Virus record (IMG/VR): IMGVR_UViG_3300042516_004449
Span: 1 to 45,530 of that record
DNA from: a virus
Strand: one strand, 5' to 3'
Length of the DNA: 45,530 nucleotides
The notes beneath the pieces were generated by a model. It saw only the letters and a list, made by a program, of their open reading frames with translations, did no database searches and was not told where the DNA came from. Within the stretch, counting starts at the first letter, position 1; each line of letters starts with the position of its first letter. Below, piece by piece: positions 22,065-39,020 of the stretch. A program made the position numbers and the translations under genes.

Positions 22065-23393
22065 TCACACGAACGCCACGTCGGACGCGAGCAGGAGTTC
22101 GTGGACGGCCCAGACGAGCGCGTCGAGGCGGTCGGGCGATCGCTCGCCGGCGAGGCCGGTGAACGAGGTGAGTTGCTTCTCCAGCGAGCGGAACGTGCCG
22201 ACGTGGAACACGCGCGGGTCACGGTGCGGCGTTCGCTCGTAGAGCGCGGACACCGGCTCCGCTCGCGCGCGCTTGCCTTGCGCGGCGCGCACGGTGCGGA
22301 CGTGGGCGAGCGGCGACACCGATGCGATCGTCTCGCTCACCATCTCGCCGCCGTTGTTGACCTCGGCGACGATGCAATCGGCGCGATGCTCCTCGTACGC
22401 GTCGACCGCGCGCTGCGCCCATCCTCGCGGCGGCAGCTTGCAGGACAGGTCGTCGAGGACGTACGCGCACCCGTCGACGCCGAGGCCGACGACGACGATG
22501 CCGGTCTCGTCGGAGTGCGTCGACGACGTCGCCGCCGGGTCGACGCTGACGACGACGCGCGAGAGTTCGGGCGCGGCCTTCACGCGCACGGCGTCGATCG
22601 TCGTGCTCGTCCAGAGCGCACCCTCGACGTCGTCGAGGAGTTCGGCTTCGATCTCCTGTCGACCGAGTCGCGTGCCTTCGTAGGTCTCGACGAGCTTCGC
22701 GAAGAACGACGGATCGAGATTGTCGCGGTTCGCGTAGCTGCTGCCGGTCGTCGTTGACGTCGACGGTGCGGCGCGGAGAGCGCGCAGCGTGTCGATCGGT
22801 CGCGGCGTCGTCGTGACGATCGCGCGCGGCGGTGAGCCGTCGGGCGCGGTGAGACGCAGGCCGAGGTCGAGGTTCGCGAGCAGTTCGTCGCGCGTCGTCG
22901 GCTTCCACGCGGCGAGTTCTTCCAGCCATGCGGTGTCGTGCTGCGGACCACGCGCGGCGTTCGGGTCGTCGCTGGAGAAGATCGTGGCAGTCGCTCCGCC
23001 GGGCCACGTCACGCGACGCTTCGACGGCTCGAAGTGCGGACGCCCGCGCGGATCACTCGTCGCGAGGATGCCAGCAGGACCGAGAACCATGACGTCGCGA
23101 GCGTCGCCGGCGTCGCGCGCGGCGAGGGCGATGTACCTCGCTTGCTTCGACCTCACGCGCTCGTGCAGCCACTCCGCGCCCGTCCTCGTCTTGCCGAACC
23201 CGCGCCCCGCCATGACGAGCCAGAAGCGCCACGCGCCCGGCGGCGGTCGCTGCTCCGGTCGCGCCCAGAACGGCCACGCATGACGGAGGCGCGCGCAGGT
23301 CGCAGGACCGAGGCGACGCAGGAGCGCGCGTCGATCGGCGTCGTCGAGAGCGAGCAGGCGCTCGCGAAGCGCGGCGAGGTCGTCGGCTCTCAT
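22065..23393 (-). CDS. terL: Terminase large subunit, 442 residues
   Basis: ATP-driven DNA packaging motor. The N-terminal ATPase has Walker A GRGFGKTR (63-70) and Walker B with catalytic Glu in DTAWLEELAAW (153-163). The C-terminal RNase H-like nuclease has Asp285 in VVVSVDPAATS, Glu344 in CIVAEVNNGGE and Asp424 in SPDRLDALVWA. The start MRADDLAALR overlaps the small subunit stop (ATGA), so the longer upstream extension in the same frame is not used. The length is typical of compact terminases of the Terminase_6 type. It works with the small subunit and the portal; here the portal is 6 kb away behind an appendage block. Confidence 0.96.
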   Translation of the reverse strand: MRADDLAALRERLLALDDADRRALLRRLGPATCARLRHAWPFWARPEQRPPPGAWRFWLVMAGRGFGKTRTGAEWLHERVRSKQARYIALAARDAGDARDVMVLGPAGILATSDPRGRPHFEPSKRRVTWPGGATATIFSSDDPNAARGPQHDTAWLEELAAWKPTTRDELLANLDLGLRLTAPDGSPPRAIVTTTPRPIDTLRALRAAPSTSTTTGSSYANRDNLDPSFFAKLVETYEGTRLGRQEIEAELLDDVEGALWTSTTIDAVRVKAAPELSRVVVSVDPAATSSTHSDETGIVVVGLGVDGCAYVLDDLSCKLPPRGWAQRAVDAYEEHRADCIVAEVNNGGEMVSETIASVSPLAHVRTVRAAQGKRARAEPVSALYERTPHRDPRVFHVGTFRSLEKQLTSFTGLAGERSPDRLDALVWAVHELLLASDVAFV

Positions 23394-23917
23394 CGCGTGC
23401 GTCTCGCTGCCATCGCGTCGAGCGCGGACGCAAGAGCCTCGACGGCGTTGTCGAGCGAGTCGTCCTCGCCGCCATCGAACGCGTGGCGACCTGCCTCGAC
23501 GTTGTCCTTCGCCCATCGCGAGCGGTGCCGTCTTTCGAGTCGATGCGCCGCTGCCTTCCAGTCCTTCTCCGCTGCCTTCCCGATCAGCATGACGTCGCGG
23601 GCTTCACTCTCTGCCGCTGCCTTCTCGACGTCGTCGGAGAAGGACACAAGATCGACCTCGTATCCTCGCGGAGTGTATCCCGAAGTCGCGACGAGCCGAC
23701 GCAGTTCTCCGCCTCTTTTCATCCACGAGTAGAACGTATCGCGATGGATGCCGACCGCCTGCGCGGCGACGTCGGGGAAGTTCCCGGCGCGCACGAGGTC
23801 GACGATGCGGCGCATGATCGACGGATCGATCACGAACAACGGCGGACGATGACCAAGCGGCTTCGTCGTCGCCGCTTTCTTCTTCGTCGTCGGCTTGCGT
23901 TTCGATGTGGTAGCCAT
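23390..23917 (-). CDS. terS: Terminase small subunit, 175 residues
   Basis: Located immediately upstream of terL with a four-base overlap. After a Lys/Thr-rich start, residues 30-75 form a helix-turn-helix (VDLVRAGNFPDVAAQAVGIH then RDTFYSWMKRGG), the DNA-recognition part of small terminases. The rest is helical and charged (RDVMLIGKAAEKDWKAAAHR). Its ATG is only 20 bases from the divergent ParB-like gene, so its promoter must overlap that gene. No clear ribosome site precedes the ATG, suggesting weak or leaderless translation. Confidence 0.88.
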   Translation of the reverse strand: MATTSKRKPTTKKKAATTKPLGHRPPLFVIDPSIMRRIVDLVRAGNFPDVAAQAVGIHRDTFYSWMKRGGELRRLVATSGYTPRGYEVDLVSFSDDVEKAAAESEARDVMLIGKAAEKDWKAAAHRLERRHRSRWAKDNVEAGRHAFDGGEDDSLDNAVEALASALDAMAARRTR

Positions 23918-23937: not shown

Positions 23938-24543
23938 GTGAAGAAGAAGCCTAGCACCGACGAAGCGCCTGCGAAGGCGTCGTCGAAGATCAACCCCGCT
24001 CTCGAACCGCTCGCGCGCCCGACGGCTTCGCTGCGTCTCGACGAGCGCAACGCCCGCAAGCACGAGCGCCGGAGCATCGACACGATCAAGACGTCGCTCT
24101 CGACGTACGGGCAGCAGAAGCCGATCGTCGCCCTGACGAGCGGAACCGTCATCGCCGGCAACGGCACGCTCGAAGCGGCGCGAGAACTTGGATGGGAGAG
24201 GATCGCGGTCGTCACGTTCGACACCGAGGACGAAGCGCGCGCGCGCGCGTTTGCCATCATGGACAACCGAACCTCCGATCTCTCGTCGTGGGATCGAGAC
24301 GTGCTCGCCGAACTCCTCGAAGGGATTCCTTCGACGATGGTCGACGCGGTCGGCTTCTCGTCGCAGGAGATCGAGACGTTGCTCGCGCTCTCCGCCGGCG
24401 ATCCAACGGCGGGACTTCCGTCCGACTCGAAGCACGTCGGACAGTTCGGCGTGATCGTTCTCTGCGGAAGCGAGGAAGAACAGCGCGACGTCTACGATCG
24501 GATGATCGCAGAGGGTTTCTCTTGCAAGGTCGTCGCGACCTGA
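23938..24543 (+). CDS. ParB/Srx-fold protein, 201 residues
   Basis: GTG start with GGAGG six bases upstream. Residues 30-115 match the ParB-like fold: LDERNARKHERRSIDTIKTS, then YGQQKPIVALTSGTVIAGNG with TLEAARELGW, and DNRTSDLSSWD. This is the subfamily common in phages next to DNA-modifying enzymes. Some members bind or cut DNA, others use nucleotides. The C-terminal 35 residues (FGVIVLCGSEEEQRDVYDRM) match the short alpha/beta tail often found in these proteins. It is the first gene of the rightward block and 12 bases upstream of the ABC-GNAT gene. Likely it gives DNA specificity or nucleotide chemistry to that cassette; this is inference. Confidence 0.85.
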   Translation: MKKKPSTDEAPAKASSKINPALEPLARPTASLRLDERNARKHERRSIDTIKTSLSTYGQQKPIVALTSGTVIAGNGTLEAARELGWERIAVVTFDTEDEARARAFAIMDNRTSDLSSWDRDVLAELLEGIPSTMVDAVGFSSQEIETLLALSAGDPTAGLPSDSKHVGQFGVIVLCGSEEEQRDVYDRMIAEGFSCKVVAT

Positions 24544-24555
24544 AGGGGTTGATCA

Positions 24556-25722
24556 ATGCTTGTCAGCGTGAGGAACAACTGCACCGACTTCTCGTCGTAC
24601 AGGTCGGCGCGGGTCAAGAGTCTTTTCAACGTCGAGAGCGGAGCGAACTTCTCGATCGACGCGGACCTGCCGATCGAGGACGACGGCTGGTCGATCGGCG
24701 TCGTCGTCGGCCCGAGCGGTTCGGGCAAGACGTCGATCGGCCGTCGCGTGTTCGGCGACGGTGCGATCCACGCGCCGACGTGGCGAGGTGGTGTTCCGAT
24801 CGTCGACGAGATAGCACCGGAGGGGAAGTTCGACGACGTCACGGCGGCGCTTGCCGCCGTCGGCCTTGGCAACGTGCCGTCGTGGCTTCGACCGTACGAA
24901 GTCCTGTCGAACGGCGAGAAGTTCCGCGCCGATCTCGCGCGCCTCGTCTGCGAGAAACCGGAGCGAGTCGTCGTCGACGAGTTCACGTCCGTCGTCGATC
25001 GGCAGATCGCGAAGTTCGGCGCGCTCGCGTTTCAGAAGTCGTGGCGTCGAACCGGCGGGAAGGCCGTTCTCCTGACGTGTCACTACGACGTGCTTGAGTG
25101 GATCGAACCGGACTGGATCTTCGACACGCAGACGAGACTCTTTCAGCGGAGGTCACTTCGGCGACCAAAGTTCGACGTTGAGGTGTTCGCGACAGACTGG
25201 AGTTACTGGCCGCTTTTTGAGCCGCATCACTATCTAAAGATTCCGAAGATGGTTGGGGCGCAGTGCTACGTCGGCGCGGTTGACGGCGAGCCGGTTTGCC
25301 ACCTCGCCGTCGGGACGATGGCACTCGGCAGGGACAGGTTCGAGGCGCGTGCGTGTCGACTCGTCGTCATGCCGGAATGGCAGGGTGCAGGCGTCGGCCT
25401 TCGCTTCCTCGATCACGTCTGCCAGCTTCAGCTTGACGGTCTCGGCAGGACGGGTCGTCGGATCACGACGATGTTTCACACCTCGCATCCCGGCCTTGCC
25501 GCCGCGCTTCGACGGAACAGGAAGTGGGTTCAGGTTTCCGAGAGACTGTTCGCGAACAACGGCTCGACGAACAAGAAGGCCGCCGTCGCCTCGGGGATTC
25601 TGCGCGGTCGCAAGGTCGTCATGGGCGCGAAGCAGGCGGCGGCCGGCGGCTCGTGGTTCGGCGGACACCTTCGCGCGGTGCAGGGGTTTCGCTACATGGG
25701 CGATCGGGGCGGAGAGCGATGA
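24556..25722 (+). CDS. ABC ATPase-GNAT acyltransferase fusion, 388 residues
   Basis: The N-terminal half is a soluble ABC ATPase: Walker A GPSGSGKTS (52-60), signature LSNGEKFRADLAR (117-129, LSNGE for LSGGQ), Walker B RVVVDE (137-142) and a switch His176 in LLTCHYD. No membrane segments are present, so it is not a transporter. Residues about 205-385 are a GNAT acyltransferase, with motif A RLVVMPEWQGAGVGLRFLD (268-286) and the acyl-CoA pyrophosphate loop QGAGVG. The phage Mu DNA modifier Mom is a GNAT-like enzyme, so the domain may act on DNA bases. The ATPase could load or remodel the substrate. The gene overlaps the formyltransferase gene by ATGA. Domain calls are firm; the pathway is inferred. 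Confidence 0.88.
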   Translation: MLVSVRNNCTDFSSYRSARVKSLFNVESGANFSIDADLPIEDDGWSIGVVVGPSGSGKTSIGRRVFGDGAIHAPTWRGGVPIVDEIAPEGKFDDVTAALAAVGLGNVPSWLRPYEVLSNGEKFRADLARLVCEKPERVVVDEFTSVVDRQIAKFGALAFQKSWRRTGGKAVLLTCHYDVLEWIEPDWIFDTQTRLFQRRSLRRPKFDVEVFATDWSYWPLFEPHHYLKIPKMVGAQCYVGAVDGEPVCHLAVGTMALGRDRFEARACRLVVMPEWQGAGVGLRFLDHVCQLQLDGLGRTGRRITTMFHTSHPGLAAALRRNRKWVQVSERLFANNGSTNKKAAVASGILRGRKVVMGAKQAAAGGSWFGGHLRAVQGFRYMGDRGGER

Positions 25723-26384
25723 GGGTTGCGCTGTTCGGGCAACGCTCCTTCGGCGGGGGAGTTCTTCGATCCCTCGTCGAGCGTCACGAGATCGCGCTCG
25801 TGGTGTCGCCGCCGAACGACGAGGACGGACGCGAGGACCGAACGCGTGCGACGGCGTCGCTGCTCGATCTCCCTTGGCGCGCGTCGGGCACCGTCACGCC
25901 CGACGAGTTCCCAGACGACGTCGACCTCATCGTCTGCGCGCACTCGCACGACTTCGTCGGACGGAGAACGCGCGCGCGTTCGAGGTTCGGGGCGGTCGGC
26001 TACCATCCGTCGTTGCTCCCGCTTCACCGAGGACGTGACGCCGTGAGGTGGACGATCCATATGCGGGACCGCGTCGCCGGCGGGAGCGTCTACTGGCTCT
26101 CCGACAACGTCGACGGCGGAGACGTCGCCGCGCAGGAATGGTGCTTCGTTCGTCCCGACGACGACGCGTCGTCCCTCTGGCGTCGAGAGCTTTTCCCGAT
26201 CGGCGTCCGTCTCCTGAACAGGGTCGTCGACGACGTTTCCGCGGGCGTTCTCGTTCGCGTACCGCAGGACGAGGAACTCGCGACGTGGGAACCGTCGTGG
26301 TCGCGCCCGCCGCTTCGACGACCCGAACTCCTCTGCCTACCGGAGCCGGGCAAGCGCGGGCCGGAGTTCGTCAGGACGCGCTAA
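25719..26384 (+). CDS. Formyltransferase-fold enzyme (10-formyl-THF type), 221 residues
   Basis: A single formyltransferase N-domain. Key motif GYHPSLLPLHRGRDAVRWTI (94-113) holds catalytic His96, and NVDGGDVAAQEW (130-141) holds the Asp132 expected by homology. The Asn two residues before His in Met-tRNA formyltransferase and GAR transformylase is Gly94 here. The pattern (YHPSLLP.HRG, then SVYW.SD..D.GD, then RRELFPIGV) most resembles the folate hydrolase/formyl-transfer domain of 10-formyltetrahydrofolate dehydrogenase. It has no tRNA-binding C-terminal domain, so tRNA formylation is unlikely. ATG overlaps the ABC-GNAT stop. It may add or remove a one-carbon group on the product of that enzyme; speculative. 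The terminator at 26425 ends this operon. Confidence 0.85.
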   Translation: MRVALFGQRSFGGGVLRSLVERHEIALVVSPPNDEDGREDRTRATASLLDLPWRASGTVTPDEFPDDVDLIVCAHSHDFVGRRTRARSRFGAVGYHPSLLPLHRGRDAVRWTIHMRDRVAGGSVYWLSDNVDGGDVAAQEWCFVRPDDDASSLWRRELFPIGVRLLNRVVDDVSAGVLVRVPQDEELATWEPSWSRPPLRRPELLCLPEPGKRGPEFVRTR

Positions 26385-29252: not shown

Positions 29253-30425
29253 ATGAAGAAGATCGCCATCGTCCCGTCGTCTCCGTCCTCGCCGCGTCAG
29301 CGCATGATCGACCTCATCGACGCGCTCAACGCCGCCGTGCTCGAACGCTCGACTGAGTCTCGCCTGCTCGTCGCGTGCGCCATCGCCGGCCACCACGCGC
29401 TCCTGCTCGGTGAGCCCGGCACCGGCAAGTCGTACCTCGCCGAGGCGCTCGCCTCGGCCATCGAGGCGGAGTGCTTCCGCTACCTCATGGGGAAGGCGAC
29501 GACGCCCGACGAGATCATCGGCGCGCCGGACCTGAAGCGATGGAGCGACACCGGCGAACGCGTCCTGCGGACGCGGCACAAGCTGACGTCGGCAGTGATC
29601 GGCTTCCTCGACGAAGTGTTCAAGTCGAACTCGGTCGTCCTGAACTCGATCCTCCGGCTCGTCAACGAACGCACCTACATCGACGACGCCGGCGAGCACG
29701 CGTCGCCGCTGCGCTTCGTCGTCGCGGCGTCGAACGAGACACCGGAGCCGGGCGAGGTTGACGCCTTCTACGATCGATTCCTCGTCGCGCTCTGCGTCGA
29801 GCCGGTCGCCGACCCGGTCAACCGGCGCGCACTCGCTCGTCGCCAGTTGCCGCCGCGTCCGTCGAAGGTCGCGACGCTCGCCGACCTCGACGCCGCTCGC
29901 GCTGAGGCTCGCGCGCTGCCGATTAGTGACGCGGCGATCGACGCGCTCGACGCCGTCGTGTCGTCGCTGCGCTCCAAGGGCATCGTGGTCAGCGACCGGC
30001 GCTTTCAGGCGACGATCGACCTGATGCAGGTATGCGCGTGGCTCGACGGGCACGCCGAAGTCGGCGCGGCCTCGGTCGACGTCGCGCGACACACCGCGTG
30101 GCGACGACTCGATCAGCGCGCCGCCGTCGATGCCGCCGTCGAGGCAGCGATGCCGAAGGTCGACGCGGACCTGACGAAGATCGGGAAGGTGCTCGCCGAA
30201 CAGGACGCCGCGATCCGCGCGTCGTCGACCCTCTCGACGAAGGCCCGCCGGCAGGAGGCACTGGGCGCTGTCGCCGACGTGCTCGACGACCTGACCGCAG
30301 ACCTCGACCGACTCGAACGAGAGAACCCGAACGCGAAGCCGGCGATCGACATCGTCCGCGCCCGCGTGAAGACCACGAACGAAGCCTGCAACGCGGCGAC
30401 GATCGCCGCCTTCCGCACGAAGTGA
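29253..30425 (+). CDS. MoxR-type AAA+ ATPase, 390 residues
   Basis: AAA+ chaperone-like ATPase of the MoxR/RavA class: Walker A GEPGTGKS (53-60), Walker B VIGFLDEVF with Asp120-Glu121, sensor 1 Asn161 in AASNE, and an arginine in YDRF following. A helical lid and a C-terminal helical extension (about 190-390) follow. MoxR proteins assemble as hexamers and act with von Willebrand A partners to remodel or insert metals into target complexes. The VWA gene begins nine bases downstream, so the two almost surely form one complex. Site AAAGGAA precedes the ATG. The target in this phage is unknown. Confidence 0.9.
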   Translation: MKKIAIVPSSPSSPRQRMIDLIDALNAAVLERSTESRLLVACAIAGHHALLLGEPGTGKSYLAEALASAIEAECFRYLMGKATTPDEIIGAPDLKRWSDTGERVLRTRHKLTSAVIGFLDEVFKSNSVVLNSILRLVNERTYIDDAGEHASPLRFVVAASNETPEPGEVDAFYDRFLVALCVEPVADPVNRRALARRQLPPRPSKVATLADLDAARAEARALPISDAAIDALDAVVSSLRSKGIVVSDRRFQATIDLMQVCAWLDGHAEVGAASVDVARHTAWRRLDQRAAVDAAVEAAMPKVDADLTKIGKVLAEQDAAIRASSTLSTKARRQEALGAVADVLDDLTADLDRLERENPNAKPAIDIVRARVKTTNEACNAATIAAFRTK

Positions 30426-30434
30426 GGGACGACC

Positions 30435-31880
30435 ATGCGAGACCTGACCTACCGGGTGAGCGCCACGACGGCGCGCGCCTTCGACAGGAGCAACGACGAA
30501 CTCGGAGACGCGGCGACGAAGCACGCGTCGAAGATCGCGGAGTGGCAGTCGTTCGGGCGCGAAGCGTTCGGCCGCCTGTACCGCCCGCAGGACGCGACGC
30601 GCACCGTGACCGCGCCCGACTCGTGGGCGCTGCGCGCGACCGATGCGCTGACGACGTCGCCCGACTGGAACGAGGCCGTCGAGGCTTCGCGCTCTCACCG
30701 GGTCGTCGCGGCGGCGACGACGGCGACGCTGCTCGACGCCGTCGCGAAGGCGCTCGGTGTTGACGGGATGCCCGACGGCGGTTCGTCGGCCGATCCGCGC
30801 TCGCTCGACCGGGCGGCGCGGCGCGCGCAAGAAGCGGCGCAGGCCGCATGGGAGCGCATGACGCAAGCGAACGACGAGCGCGACGACGCGGCGGCGAAGG
30901 ACGCGCGCGACGAGTTCGACGCGGCGAGTGCGGCGGCGAAGGCCGCCGACGTCGCGGCGGCGCAGGCTCGTGGGCGTCGGGCGATGCTCGAAGGCGCAGC
31001 GAAGGCGCAGGCGGCGAAGGTCGCGGTCGCCGTTGCGAAGGCGGCGAAGGAGGCGAAGGCGATGGCGGAGGCCGTCGCGTTGCTCGCCGGCGTCGGTGTC
31101 GGCGGCGACGGCGTCGAGGGCGACATCGACGAGGAACTGTTGCGCCTCGTTCGTGACAGCGCCGACGTTCGCGAAGTGCTCCGTCAGGTCGGCCGCTCGA
31201 AGGACGCGGCGGCGAAGCGCACCGGGCTTCGTGACGGCGGGCGGCTCGACGTCCTCGGCGTCGACGCCGGGCGCGACGTGTTCTCGCTGGCGTCGTCGGA
31301 GATGTTGCTCCTGTCGATGGGCGGCGTCGCTCGCCTCGACGTGCTGTCGCGTGCGGAGCAAGGCGCGGCGCTCGTCGTCTCGCGCGCCGGCGACAAGCCC
31401 GCCGAGGCCGGCGACTTCGTCCTGCTCGTCGACCGTTCGGGGTCGATGGCTGGCGCGCGGCAGCGGTCGGCGCGGGCGTTCGCGATGGGCGCGATCCTGC
31501 GCGCCCTCGGCGAGCGTCGCCGCGTCGTGGTCGTCGCGTTCGACGACGGCCCGGCGGCGCGCGCCGTGGTCGAGCGTGACGGGAGCGGCTTGCCCGACGC
31601 CGTGCGCGCGTTGCTCTTGCCGGCGTACGGCGGGACCGACGCGGTCGGCGCGATGCGCGCGGCTGTCGGTGCGTTGACGGCGAACGAGCGCGCGCGCGTC
31701 GACACGTTGATCGTGACCGATGGGCAGTGGGCGGACCCGACGCCGGAGACGCTGCGCCTGCTTCGTCGCGGCGGCGGCTCGTTCAAGGCCGTGCTCGTCG
31801 ACGGCGTGGGCGAGTCGAAGGACTGGCTCGACGGGGTCTGGACGATGTCGTCGACCGGCGACGTGAAGCAGGTCCGGTGA
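30435..31880 (+). CDS. VWA domain protein, partner of MoxR, 481 residues
   Basis: Residues about 325-481 form a von Willebrand A domain with an intact MIDAS metal site: DRSGSMAG (Asp333, Ser335, Ser337), Thr401 in YGGTDAVGA and Asp429 in LIVTDGQWAD. Before it lie a folded N terminus and a long Ala/Lys/Glu coiled coil (about 125-215). The layout, with the VWA at the C terminus, is that of CoxE/ViaA/CobT-like partners of MoxR ATPases. The MIDAS is complete, so metal-dependent binding is expected. It lies directly after the MoxR gene. The phage target is unknown. Confidence 0.9.
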   Translation: MRDLTYRVSATTARAFDRSNDELGDAATKHASKIAEWQSFGREAFGRLYRPQDATRTVTAPDSWALRATDALTTSPDWNEAVEASRSHRVVAAATTATLLDAVAKALGVDGMPDGGSSADPRSLDRAARRAQEAAQAAWERMTQANDERDDAAAKDARDEFDAASAAAKAADVAAAQARGRRAMLEGAAKAQAAKVAVAVAKAAKEAKAMAEAVALLAGVGVGGDGVEGDIDEELLRLVRDSADVREVLRQVGRSKDAAAKRTGLRDGGRLDVLGVDAGRDVFSLASSEMLLLSMGGVARLDVLSRAEQGAALVVSRAGDKPAEAGDFVLLVDRSGSMAGARQRSARAFAMGAILRALGERRRVVVVAFDDGPAARAVVERDGSGLPDAVRALLLPAYGGTDAVGAMRAAVGALTANERARVDTLIVTDGQWADPTPETLRLLRRGGGSFKAVLVDGVGESKDWLDGVWTMSSTGDVKQVR

Positions 31881-37549: not shown

Positions 37550-37915
37550 GTGGACGCCGACGAGAGAGCGAAGCTGACGGCGGAGTGCCGCGCGTTGATC
37601 GAGACGCGCGTGCGAGAGCCCGGCGAGGACGACGACCTCGACGACGAAGACCTCGTTCCGCTCGGGAAGCTACTCGCCGCGATCCGGCTCGGCTTCCTGC
37701 GCGTGCCGAAGTTCGAGCCGGCACCGCGCCGCGCGCCGGCGTGGTTGCTCGACACGATCGAGAGCACTCGGGCGCTGCTCGATCGCGCACGACAGAGACA
37801 CCGTGACGCGCCGTGGGCGTCGACGGAGGACGACATCGCGTGGGGTCACGACCTACGCAAACACATCGACGAGTTGCTTTCGCTTCTCGACGAGTACGAA
37901 GGGGCAGACCGATGA
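37550..37915 (+). CDS. Uncharacterised protein, 121 residues
   Basis: GTG start one base after the helicase stop. The protein (MDADERAKLTAECRALIETR, then acidic GEDDDLDDEDLVPLGKLL) is helical and charged, with a last helix pair ending LLSLLDEYEGADR. It overlaps the next gene by ATGA. No family recognised. Coupling to the helicase suggests a replication-associated accessory. Confidence 0.6.
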   Translation: MDADERAKLTAECRALIETRVREPGEDDDLDDEDLVPLGKLLAAIRLGFLRVPKFEPAPRRAPAWLLDTIESTRALLDRARQRHRDAPWASTEDDIAWGHDLRKHIDELLSLLDEYEGADR

Positions 37916-38385
37916 AACAGGACGATCTCTTTTCCCGTATCCCGACGGTGCTCGAACGCGTGAAGGCGCGCGTGAACGCAGCACGCGACACCGCAACGCA
38001 GGAACAGCGCGAAGTCCTCGACGTGCTGACGACGACGCCGGGCAAGGTCACGCAGCGCGACCTTGCGAAGCGGTGCCCGATGCTCGGTCGTCACTGGCGC
38101 GAGCAAGCGACGGCGGCCGACGACGAGACGACGCTTCGCAAGGTGCGGCAGGTCGTTCGCGATCTCCGCGTCGAACTCCGCGTGCCCATCCTCTCCGACC
38201 CGAAGGGGTACTGGCTCCCGCGCACCGACGACGAGGTCTCCGAGTACGTCGACCGCGTCGAGAAGCAAGCGCGGGCAACGGCGCGCGCGTGGTTCGAGAC
38301 GCTGAAGTCGCTCGACGGTTTCGTCGACGACGGACGACAGCGCGCGTTGTTCGACATCGTCGAAGCGATCGGCGGTGCGCCGTGA
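37912..38385 (+). CDS. Winged-helix type phage protein, 157 residues
   Basis: QEQREVLDVLTTTPGKVTQR followed by a helix pair, then TTLRKVRQVVRDLRVELRVP and ILSDPKGYWLPRTDDEVSEY, is a winged-helix pattern seen in phage regulatory or replication-linked proteins (the ISDpkGYwl...eE motif). It may bind DNA. ATG overlaps the upstream stop and its stop overlaps the methyltransferase GTG. Function not established. Confidence 0.65.
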   Translation: MKQDDLFSRIPTVLERVKARVNAARDTATQEQREVLDVLTTTPGKVTQRDLAKRCPMLGRHWREQATAADDETTLRKVRQVVRDLRVELRVPILSDPKGYWLPRTDDEVSEYVDRVEKQARATARAWFETLKSLDGFVDDGRQRALFDIVEAIGGAP

Positions 38386-39020
38386 CGTTCCTCGCAGTGA
38401 TCGACCCGCCGTGGAACCGTGAGCGCGGAGGCGGCGGACGCGGAGCGGAGAACCACTACCCGCTCTCTGGTCCCGACGAGATCGCGCGCGCCGTCGTCGA
38501 GAGCGGCGCGTGGCAGGCGAATGGCAACGCGCTCGTCTGGGTGTGGGCGACGTCGGCGACGATGATGCGCGGCGACTTCTTCGAGTTCGCCCGCGCGCTC
38601 GACGTGCGACCCTGCGCGCAGTTCGTGTGGGCGAAGGTCGACGTCGTCGAAGCGTACCGAGACAAGACGCCGTGGTGCCCGTCGTCGCCGATGTACGTCG
38701 CGCCGGCGAAGCCCGGCCTCGGGCAGTGGACGCGATGCGAGCACGAGCACCTCGTCGTCTGCCGACGCGGCGACGTGTCCGTTCCGCCTCCGGGTCGACG
38801 TAGCCGATCGATGATCTACGCCGCGCGGTCGAAGCACTCGGAGAAACCCGGCGAGGCGTGGACGGTGATCGAGTCGACGTCGTCGCATCTCGCGACCGTT
38901 GGCGTCGAGTTCTTCGCGCGACGTCGACGACGCGGCGGCGGCGTCGTTCGGTGGGGCGCGTGGGGTCGCGTCGACGGCGAGGACCAGCCCATCAGGTACG
39001 AACCGCCGGAGGCACCGTGA
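38382..39020 (+). CDS. MT-A70-type adenine methyltransferase, 212 residues
   Basis: The catalytic DPPW (residues 8-11) at the N terminus and the following HYPLSGPDEIAR, LVWVWATSATMM, CAQFVWAKVD and HEHLVVCRRGD match the MT-A70 fold that uses SAM to make N6-methyladenine. GTG start overlaps the upstream stop (GTGA). Phage members protect DNA from restriction or regulate it. Its C-terminal part (EAWTVIESTSSHLATVGVEF) is complete. No partner restriction enzyme is encoded. This is a second possible DNA modification besides the ABC-GNAT cassette. Confidence 0.88.
   Translation: MTFLAVIDPPWNRERGGGGRGAENHYPLSGPDEIARAVVESGAWQANGNALVWVWATSATMMRGDFFEFARALDVRPCAQFVWAKVDVVEAYRDKTPWCPSSPMYVAPAKPGLGQWTRCEHEHLVVCRRGDVSVPPPGRRSRSMIYAARSKHSEKPGEAWTVIESTSSHLATVGVEFFARRRRRGGGVVRWGAWGRVDGEDQPIRYEPPEAP

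Follow-up and report, generated by a model that had tools for sequence, protein, structure and literature searches.

The ABC-GNAT gene analyzed here encodes a soluble ABC ATPase and a GNAT acyltransferase domain in one chain, and it sits between a ParB-like gene and a gene for a formyltransferase-fold (Fmt-like) protein, next to the terminase genes of a phage. We consider it probable that this protein acylates DNA bases, and propose that the CoA-dependent GNAT would be gated by ATP, directed by the ParB-like protein and served by a dedicated supply of acyl-CoA; the idea that the transferred group is formyl is tentative. The window, i.e., the whole stretch of 45,530 nucleotides that was analyzed, is an IMG/VR virus record which carries head, portal, terminase, RecE/RecT, SSB and DnaB-like genes. 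Features of the locus are collected in Table 1.

Table 1. Features of the ABC-GNAT locus and loci of split relatives with overlapping reading frames. Coordinates are those of the window, except where a relative's locus (L number) is named.
Feature	Position	Strand	Evidence
Terminase large subunit, divergent neighbour	22065..23516	-	phrog_979 E 2e-29
Terminase small subunit	23390..23917	-	phrog_4102 E 1.2e-25
ParB-like protein, 201 aa	23938..24543	+	phrog_620 E 9.4e-33; ParB-DNA methyltransferase family phrog_498 E 4e-31
~45-aa C-terminal domain of ParB-like protein (phrog_28816)	24430..24540	+	PHROG profile match
ABC-GNAT fusion protein, 388 aa	24556..25722	+	single uninterrupted ORF; PHROG 11143 E 4.9e-138
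ABC ATPase half, residues 1-202	24556..25161	+	ABC_tran match; NBD fold, Z about 15
Walker A GPSGSGKTS (52-60)	24709..24735	+	G52, G57, K58 invariant, 57 sequences
ABC signature LSNGE (117-121)	24904..24918	+	L117, S118, G120, E121 invariant, 57 sequences
Walker B VVVDE (138-142), catalytic Glu142	24967..24981	+	D141, E142 invariant, 57 sequences
Switch (H-loop) His176	25081..25083	+	invariant, 57 sequences
GNAT half, residues 203-388	25162..25719	+	Acetyltransf_7; own model pLDDT 84.5; GNAT fold
HHYL motif (224-227)	25225..25236	+	H224, Y226, L227 invariant, 57 sequences; Tyr also in wider set
GNAT motif A QGAGVG (276-281), CoA pyrophosphate loop	25381..25398	+	Q276, G277, G279, G281 invariant
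Basic, partly disordered GNAT-half insert (330-372)	25543..25671	+	low pLDDT at 356-371
Formyltransferase-fold protein, FDH N-domain-like	25719..26384	+	PF00551 E 5.8e-17
-1 overlap in split relatives	L003:5402-5504; L170:4405-4507; L212:6570-6672; L213:6579-6681; L215:4435-4540; L192:6555-6669		
Remaining -1 overlap loci	L211, L260, L261, L262, L263, L264		

An earlier note on this DNA had read the gene as one chain in which a full set of ABC motifs is followed by GNAT motif A. This is borne out by the open reading frame and by an alignment of 57 ABC-GNAT sequences, in which the relatives are 51-67% identical to the window protein. Since the motifs are invariant across the aligned sequences, they are not a matter of chance. 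The ABC half has the Walker A, signature, Walker B with its Glu, D-loop and H-loop of the ABC ATPase superfamily, where the D-loop is SVVD at residues 145-148 (S145 and D148 invariant in the 57 sequences). The GNAT half has the fold and the Q/R-x-x-G-x-G/A loop of the GNAT superfamily, and on the sequence level its CoA site is not degenerate, as motif A is intact. Profile searches of each half, which the earlier note had called for, placed ABC_tran just above its cut-off on the ABC half (25.9 bits vs 25) and Acetyltransf_7 below its cut-off on the GNAT half (E 6.5e-05; 23.7 bits vs 27), and PHROG 11143, with the function "unknown", spans the whole chain.

The AlphaFold2 model of the single chain contains two confident domains (mean pLDDT 86.5, pTM 0.79). 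The ABC half superposes on ABC nucleotide-binding domains (NBDs) over ~177 residues with an rmsd of about 3, and the GNAT half, modelled alone, is closest in fold to RimI/Naa50-like GNATs (Z 12.7-14.6). This fold is generic, and the substrate can therefore not be deduced from it. The spacing from Walker A to the signature is only ~58 residues, and the 57-sequence alignment has no invariant Gln between the two motifs; the helical subdomain thus looks shortened, judged from the alignment, with no recognisable Q-loop. Single-NBD soluble ABC ATPases need to dimerise to form an active site. Since ABC-GNAT has one NBD per chain with a full signature and D-loop, it should dimerise, as the earlier note had also reasoned from the single ATPase unit. 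In the GNAT half, HHYL is likely on the acceptor side, and the insert at residues 330-372 has a mean net charge of +4.7 (minimum +1 in the 57 sequences), which makes it a possible contact for nucleic acid.

The ABC-GNAT gene is the middle gene of a three-gene cassette, in which it is preceded by the ~45-aa domain and followed by the Fmt-like gene. In 156 of 160 window-type loci, the ORF with the ~45-aa domain terminates where ABC-GNAT starts (132 of them with an overlap of 4 nt), and in the window the ATG of the Fmt-like gene overlaps the ABC-GNAT stop (ATGA). Because the genes of the cassette overlap so tightly, translational coupling and a joint function are suggested. The ~45-aa domain, which has a consensus like YGVIVxCxxExxQxxVYExLxxxGxxCKVVxV (phrog_28816), forms the C-terminus of the ParB-like protein in the window and in many other loci, and is a stand-alone short ORF in many prophages. 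The small ORF of Porphyromonas phages (L168:4876-5004) is labelled "acr candidate"; since this ORF is the conserved cassette domain, the anti-CRISPR label is unsupported here. The Fmt-fold gene lies directly 3' of ABC-GNAT in 129 of the 146 loci with room for it. It is missing from about one tenth of the window-type relatives, some of which run directly into terminase.

The genes next to ABC-GNAT were absent from the earlier account, and they are the most informative evidence on the acyl donor. In a single-sequence search, the Fmt-like neighbour matches the N-domain of 10-formyl-THF dehydrogenase (FDH) with E 1.5e-29, compared to 7e-10 for the best Met-tRNA formyltransferase (Fmt), and a profile search gives 145 bits to FDH against 107 to the best Fmt. 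The same preference for FDH is seen for a short, ~160-aa subtype of the Fmt-like proteins. A FastTree phylogeny that includes 29 cellular sequences (Fmt, PurN and PurU) and only two of FDH places the phage family and FDH in one group (local support 1.0) apart from these cellular enzymes, with a poorly supported split between FDH and phage sequences inside this group. The labels PurN ("phosphoribosylglycinamide formyltransferase") and "tRNA-methyltransferase", under which relatives of the neighbour are annotated, were therefore rejected, as it groups with FDH. At the active site, the FDH triad His106/Ser108/Asp142 has its counterpart in His97, Ser99 and Asp133, of which the first two are conserved in all 138 phage members and Asp133 in 137. 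The Asn required by amine formyltransferases is found in all 29 cellular Fmt, PurN and PurU sequences and in none of the 138 phage members, which mostly have Gly. FDH has Ile at this position, and the change of Ile104 to Asn cuts its hydrolase activity to <10% (PMC4388273).

FDH hands its formyl group to the thiol of 4'-phosphopantetheine (PMC8748788), and HypX has been proposed, without direct proof, to hand formyl to CoA (PMC6802093). Because the partner of the phage protein is a CoA-dependent GNAT, a supply of formyl-CoA is the natural reading, and by analogy with these enzymes the Fmt-like protein may provide the GNAT with formyl-CoA. The donor gene is not an absolute requirement, since some window-type relatives lack it and several deeper clades have neither of the two donor modules described here. 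We know of no GNAT that uses formyl-CoA.

Alternatively, DNA could be acylated as proposed but with the GNAT drawing on an ordinary acyl-CoA of the host, and the Fmt-fold protein could later add formyl to an amino group of what the GNAT has made. The relatives without the Fmt gene fit such a division of labour, and the best-known members of the fold, Fmt, PurN and ArnA, do formylate amines. However, the amine-formyltransferase Asn is replaced throughout the phage family and present throughout the cellular set, and the nearest relative, FDH, has a thiol acceptor; we therefore regard later formylation of an amine as rather unlikely.

A second donor module is found in the clade that contains Rhodococcus phage Jace, where PanD and a CoA-transferase III-like gene stand in place of the Fmt gene (L169:5116-6227, L172-L189). 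The match to PanD (aspartate decarboxylase) has E 2e-33, and the Jace PanD retains the Gly-Ser processing site in the alignment. The CoA-transferase family III protein of this clade is ~225 aa, about half the usual length, and its match to a solved structure is weak (E 0.007). When the donor type is mapped on the ABC-GNAT tree, 7 changes are needed compared to a minimum of 23 after shuffling; the accessory type thus tracks the phylogeny of ABC-GNAT. Fmt and the PanD/CoA-transferase module are both absent from several deep clades. Our literature search on PanD/CoA-transferase in phage DNA modification, and on DNA restriction of the Leptospira phages LE3/LE4, gave nothing useful.

The genomic setting points to DNA as the likely substrate. 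The ParB-like gene of the window adjoins the terminase genes. In Gordonia phage Axumite, ParB, ABC-GNAT, Fmt-like and terminase genes are consecutive, and in Leptospira phage LE3 and Streptococcus phage MismyG, ParB is followed by ABC and GNAT, with terminase shortly after. In MismyG, the GNAT ORF is directly followed by an ASCH-domain gene, which lies before terminase (L170:4943-5311). ASCH domains were reportedly predicted by Iyer and colleagues in 2013 to be readers of modified bases, and the MismyG protein is possibly such a reader. In the passage of PMC6536676 that cites Iyer 2013, the ParB-terminase locus is described as a home of phage DNA-modification genes, and ParB is proposed to direct them. 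In Microbacterium phage Appa, the overlap seen in the cassette recurs between a ParB-like gene and a Mom-family gene (L253:969-2228). Immediately beside this pair is a tRNA-Gly gene. Mom installs a glycinamide-like group, and the tRNA-Gly gene may hint at the donor or lie there by chance. In one relative (L009), reading by eye found a large downstream ORF that looks ParB-like and nucleotide-binding, followed by an ORF resembling a D12-class DNA adenine methylase. The PADLOC defence models gave only weak ABC matches, and models of ParB-type methyltransferases matched the ParB-like protein. ParB-like domains can also be nucleases, so the ParB-like protein need not direct modification. Elsewhere in the window there is an MT-A70-type methyltransferase (37803-39020; E 1.4e-07), which may be a second gene for nucleic-acid modification, and an AAA ATPase followed by a VWA-domain protein (29253-31880), resembling a MoxR/VWA pair.

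The earlier note had suggested a large substrate such as DNA or RNA, and of these two it is DNA that fits the ParB-terminase setting. Modification of RNA or protein (ribosome, tRNA or RNA polymerase) for host takeover, with an ABC half acting like ABC-F or SufC-type proteins, would be in line with the RimI/Naa50-like fold of the GNAT half and with weak matches of the ABC half which include ABC-F and SufC proteins. We find this quite unlikely, as the fold is generic, ABC-F proteins have two NBDs where the window protein has one, and both the ParB and terminase setting and the pairing of Mom with ParB favour DNA. The sequence similarity of the GNAT half to RimI and peptide N-acetyltransferases is not significant (best solved chains E 0.012 or worse), and a close match to a peptide or antibiotic acetyltransferase, which the earlier note had named as a refuting outcome, was thus not seen. 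That the protein is a remnant or accessory ATPase of an ABC transporter, joined to an unrelated metabolic acetyltransferase, as the database name "ABC iron siderophore transporter" of some relatives would have it, is very improbable, since no membrane-domain gene was seen adjoining ABC-GNAT or within the cassette (in line with the earlier claim of a soluble ABC half without membrane partners), the Q-loop Gln is not recognisable, and ParB-like and Fmt-like genes accompany it in a fixed phage cassette; we therefore rejected transporter identity.

A comparison with the Mom and RimI families had also been proposed in the earlier note; for RimI, the likeness lies in fold and not in sequence, and for Mom it is faint. 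The Mom family model PF25680 does not match the window protein at E up to 1, although it gives phage Mu Mom 253 bits. Profile alignment of the GNAT half with Mom by hhalign, in which the H-Y motif is included, is weak (probability 13.9%, score 29.2, 58 columns). For this comparison, diverse Mom homologues from GenBank phages were used, as those derived from the scan were too close to Mu. Column-shuffled Mom controls reached a maximum of 22.3 in 60 runs, compared to 29.2, and the difference may reflect only the shared GNAT superfamily. By sequence, membership of the Mom family was rejected, as there is no PF25680 match; the profile link is weak and non-specific.

In the window, ABC and GNAT are fused in frame. 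In phages of Lactococcus, Streptococcus, Oenococcus, Enterococcus and Thomasclavelia, and in one high-GC contig, they are separate ORFs. In all 12 split loci, the GNAT half is in frame -1 relative to the ABC ORF; the two overlap by 97-136 nt, and the ABC ORF stops where the HYL motif is read out of frame. Canonical slippery heptamers were found in phase near the expected junction in 5 of the 12 (T_TTT_TTT in three, C_CCC_CCT and A_AAA_AAG), and over all 12 loci, 19 X_XXY_YYZ heptamers are in phase compared to 5 and 7 out of phase. Judged from these sequences, the split halves are probably joined by a programmed -1 frameshift and annotated as two genes. Most streptococcal sites are a shorter U-run, and for these the mechanism is less certain. 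A -1 frameshift in the split relatives would yield both ABC alone and the ABC-GNAT fusion as products.

ABC-GNAT homologues were found in 55 GenBank phages, 347 IMG/VR stretches (>300 loci) and 158 stretches of bacterial genome contigs, with host phyla that include Pseudomonadota, Bacteroidota, Planctomycetota, Actinomycetota and Bacillota, among others. The family is thus common in phages and prophages across many bacterial phyla. A GNAT coupled to an ABC ATPase has been identified before and predicted to modify a DNA base by an uncharacterised acylation, with phage pT24 as an example, according to the statement in PMC7824862 that cites Iyer 2013. Tenacibaculum phage pT24 (published example QAX98348.1) has one place homologous to the window gene in a tblastn search of the phage DNA (E 4e-37, 36.7% identity). 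With an ABC ATPase coupled to a GNAT and homology to pT24, the window gene has these two features of the Iyer/Aravind ABC-GNAT family, and since the published example carries a homologue, the gene belongs to a kind that was already predicted. As far as checked, the cassette of ~45-aa domain, ABC-GNAT and Fmt-like gene, the FDH-like donor, the PanD/CoA-transferase alternative and the frameshift are new, though Iyer et al. 2013 may contain some of them.

Collectively, our results suggest the following model of DNA acylation. The ABC half would dimerise with ATP on phage DNA as a clamp, and the ParB-like protein, or the ~45-aa domain alone, would recruit or regulate ABC-GNAT near packaging. The Fmt-fold protein would move formyl from 10-formyl-THF to the CoA thiol, giving formyl-CoA for the GNAT half, which would transfer the acyl group to the exocyclic amine of a base, most plausibly adenine N6 or cytosine N4. 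The acylated phage DNA could then resist restriction. In its most specific form, the proposal is that the FDH-like source of formyl-CoA and the ATP-gated GNAT N-formylate phage bases, that PanD and CoA-transferase III of the sister clade install another acyl group (e.g., beta-alanyl), and that the accessory genes thereby set the chemistry; this form is speculative, and we put it forward with low confidence. With the donor genes, a vague prediction of acyl modification becomes a prediction of specific masses on the DNA of these phages. If the model holds, N-formyl and perhaps beta-alanyl bases would join the known DNA modifications, formyl-CoA would have a use in nucleic-acid modification, and the system would be a clean case of ATP binding that gates a GNAT on DNA. 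Acyl, perhaps formyl, decoration would then help phages evade bacterial defences.

Several known systems resemble parts of this one. The Iyer/Aravind system of pT24 has the same pairing of ABC and GNAT and the same predicted role on a DNA base, and its restatement for jumbo phages, in the section of PMC7824862 concerned, does not mention donor genes, the ~45-aa domain or a frameshift. SufC, SbcC/Rad50 and other soluble ABC ATPases likewise have one NBD per chain, whereas the window protein has a C-terminal GNAT fusion and a shortened helical subdomain. The Fmt-like neighbour resembles the N-domains of FDH (ALDH1L1) and HypX in its fold, in having lost the Asn and in a Q...ATW/YE stretch close to where the match ends, and it shares the His/Ser/Asp triad with FDH. 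Unlike these, it is free-standing, without a carrier, aldehyde dehydrogenase or enoyl-CoA-hydratase-like domain, and it differs from FDH in having mostly Gly in place of Ile at the Asn site and Trp where FDH has Tyr200. Mom of phage Mu, a phage enzyme for DNA, is likewise of the GNAT superfamily, with a similarly placed H-Y motif, and a Mom-type gene is, like ABC-GNAT, paired with ParB (in Appa). Furthermore, in the Mu-like Pseudomonas phage Komp_PAO1_1, the cassette follows the tail-fibre genes, roughly where Mu has mom. Unlike the window protein, Mom lacks both an ABC domain and accompanying donor genes.
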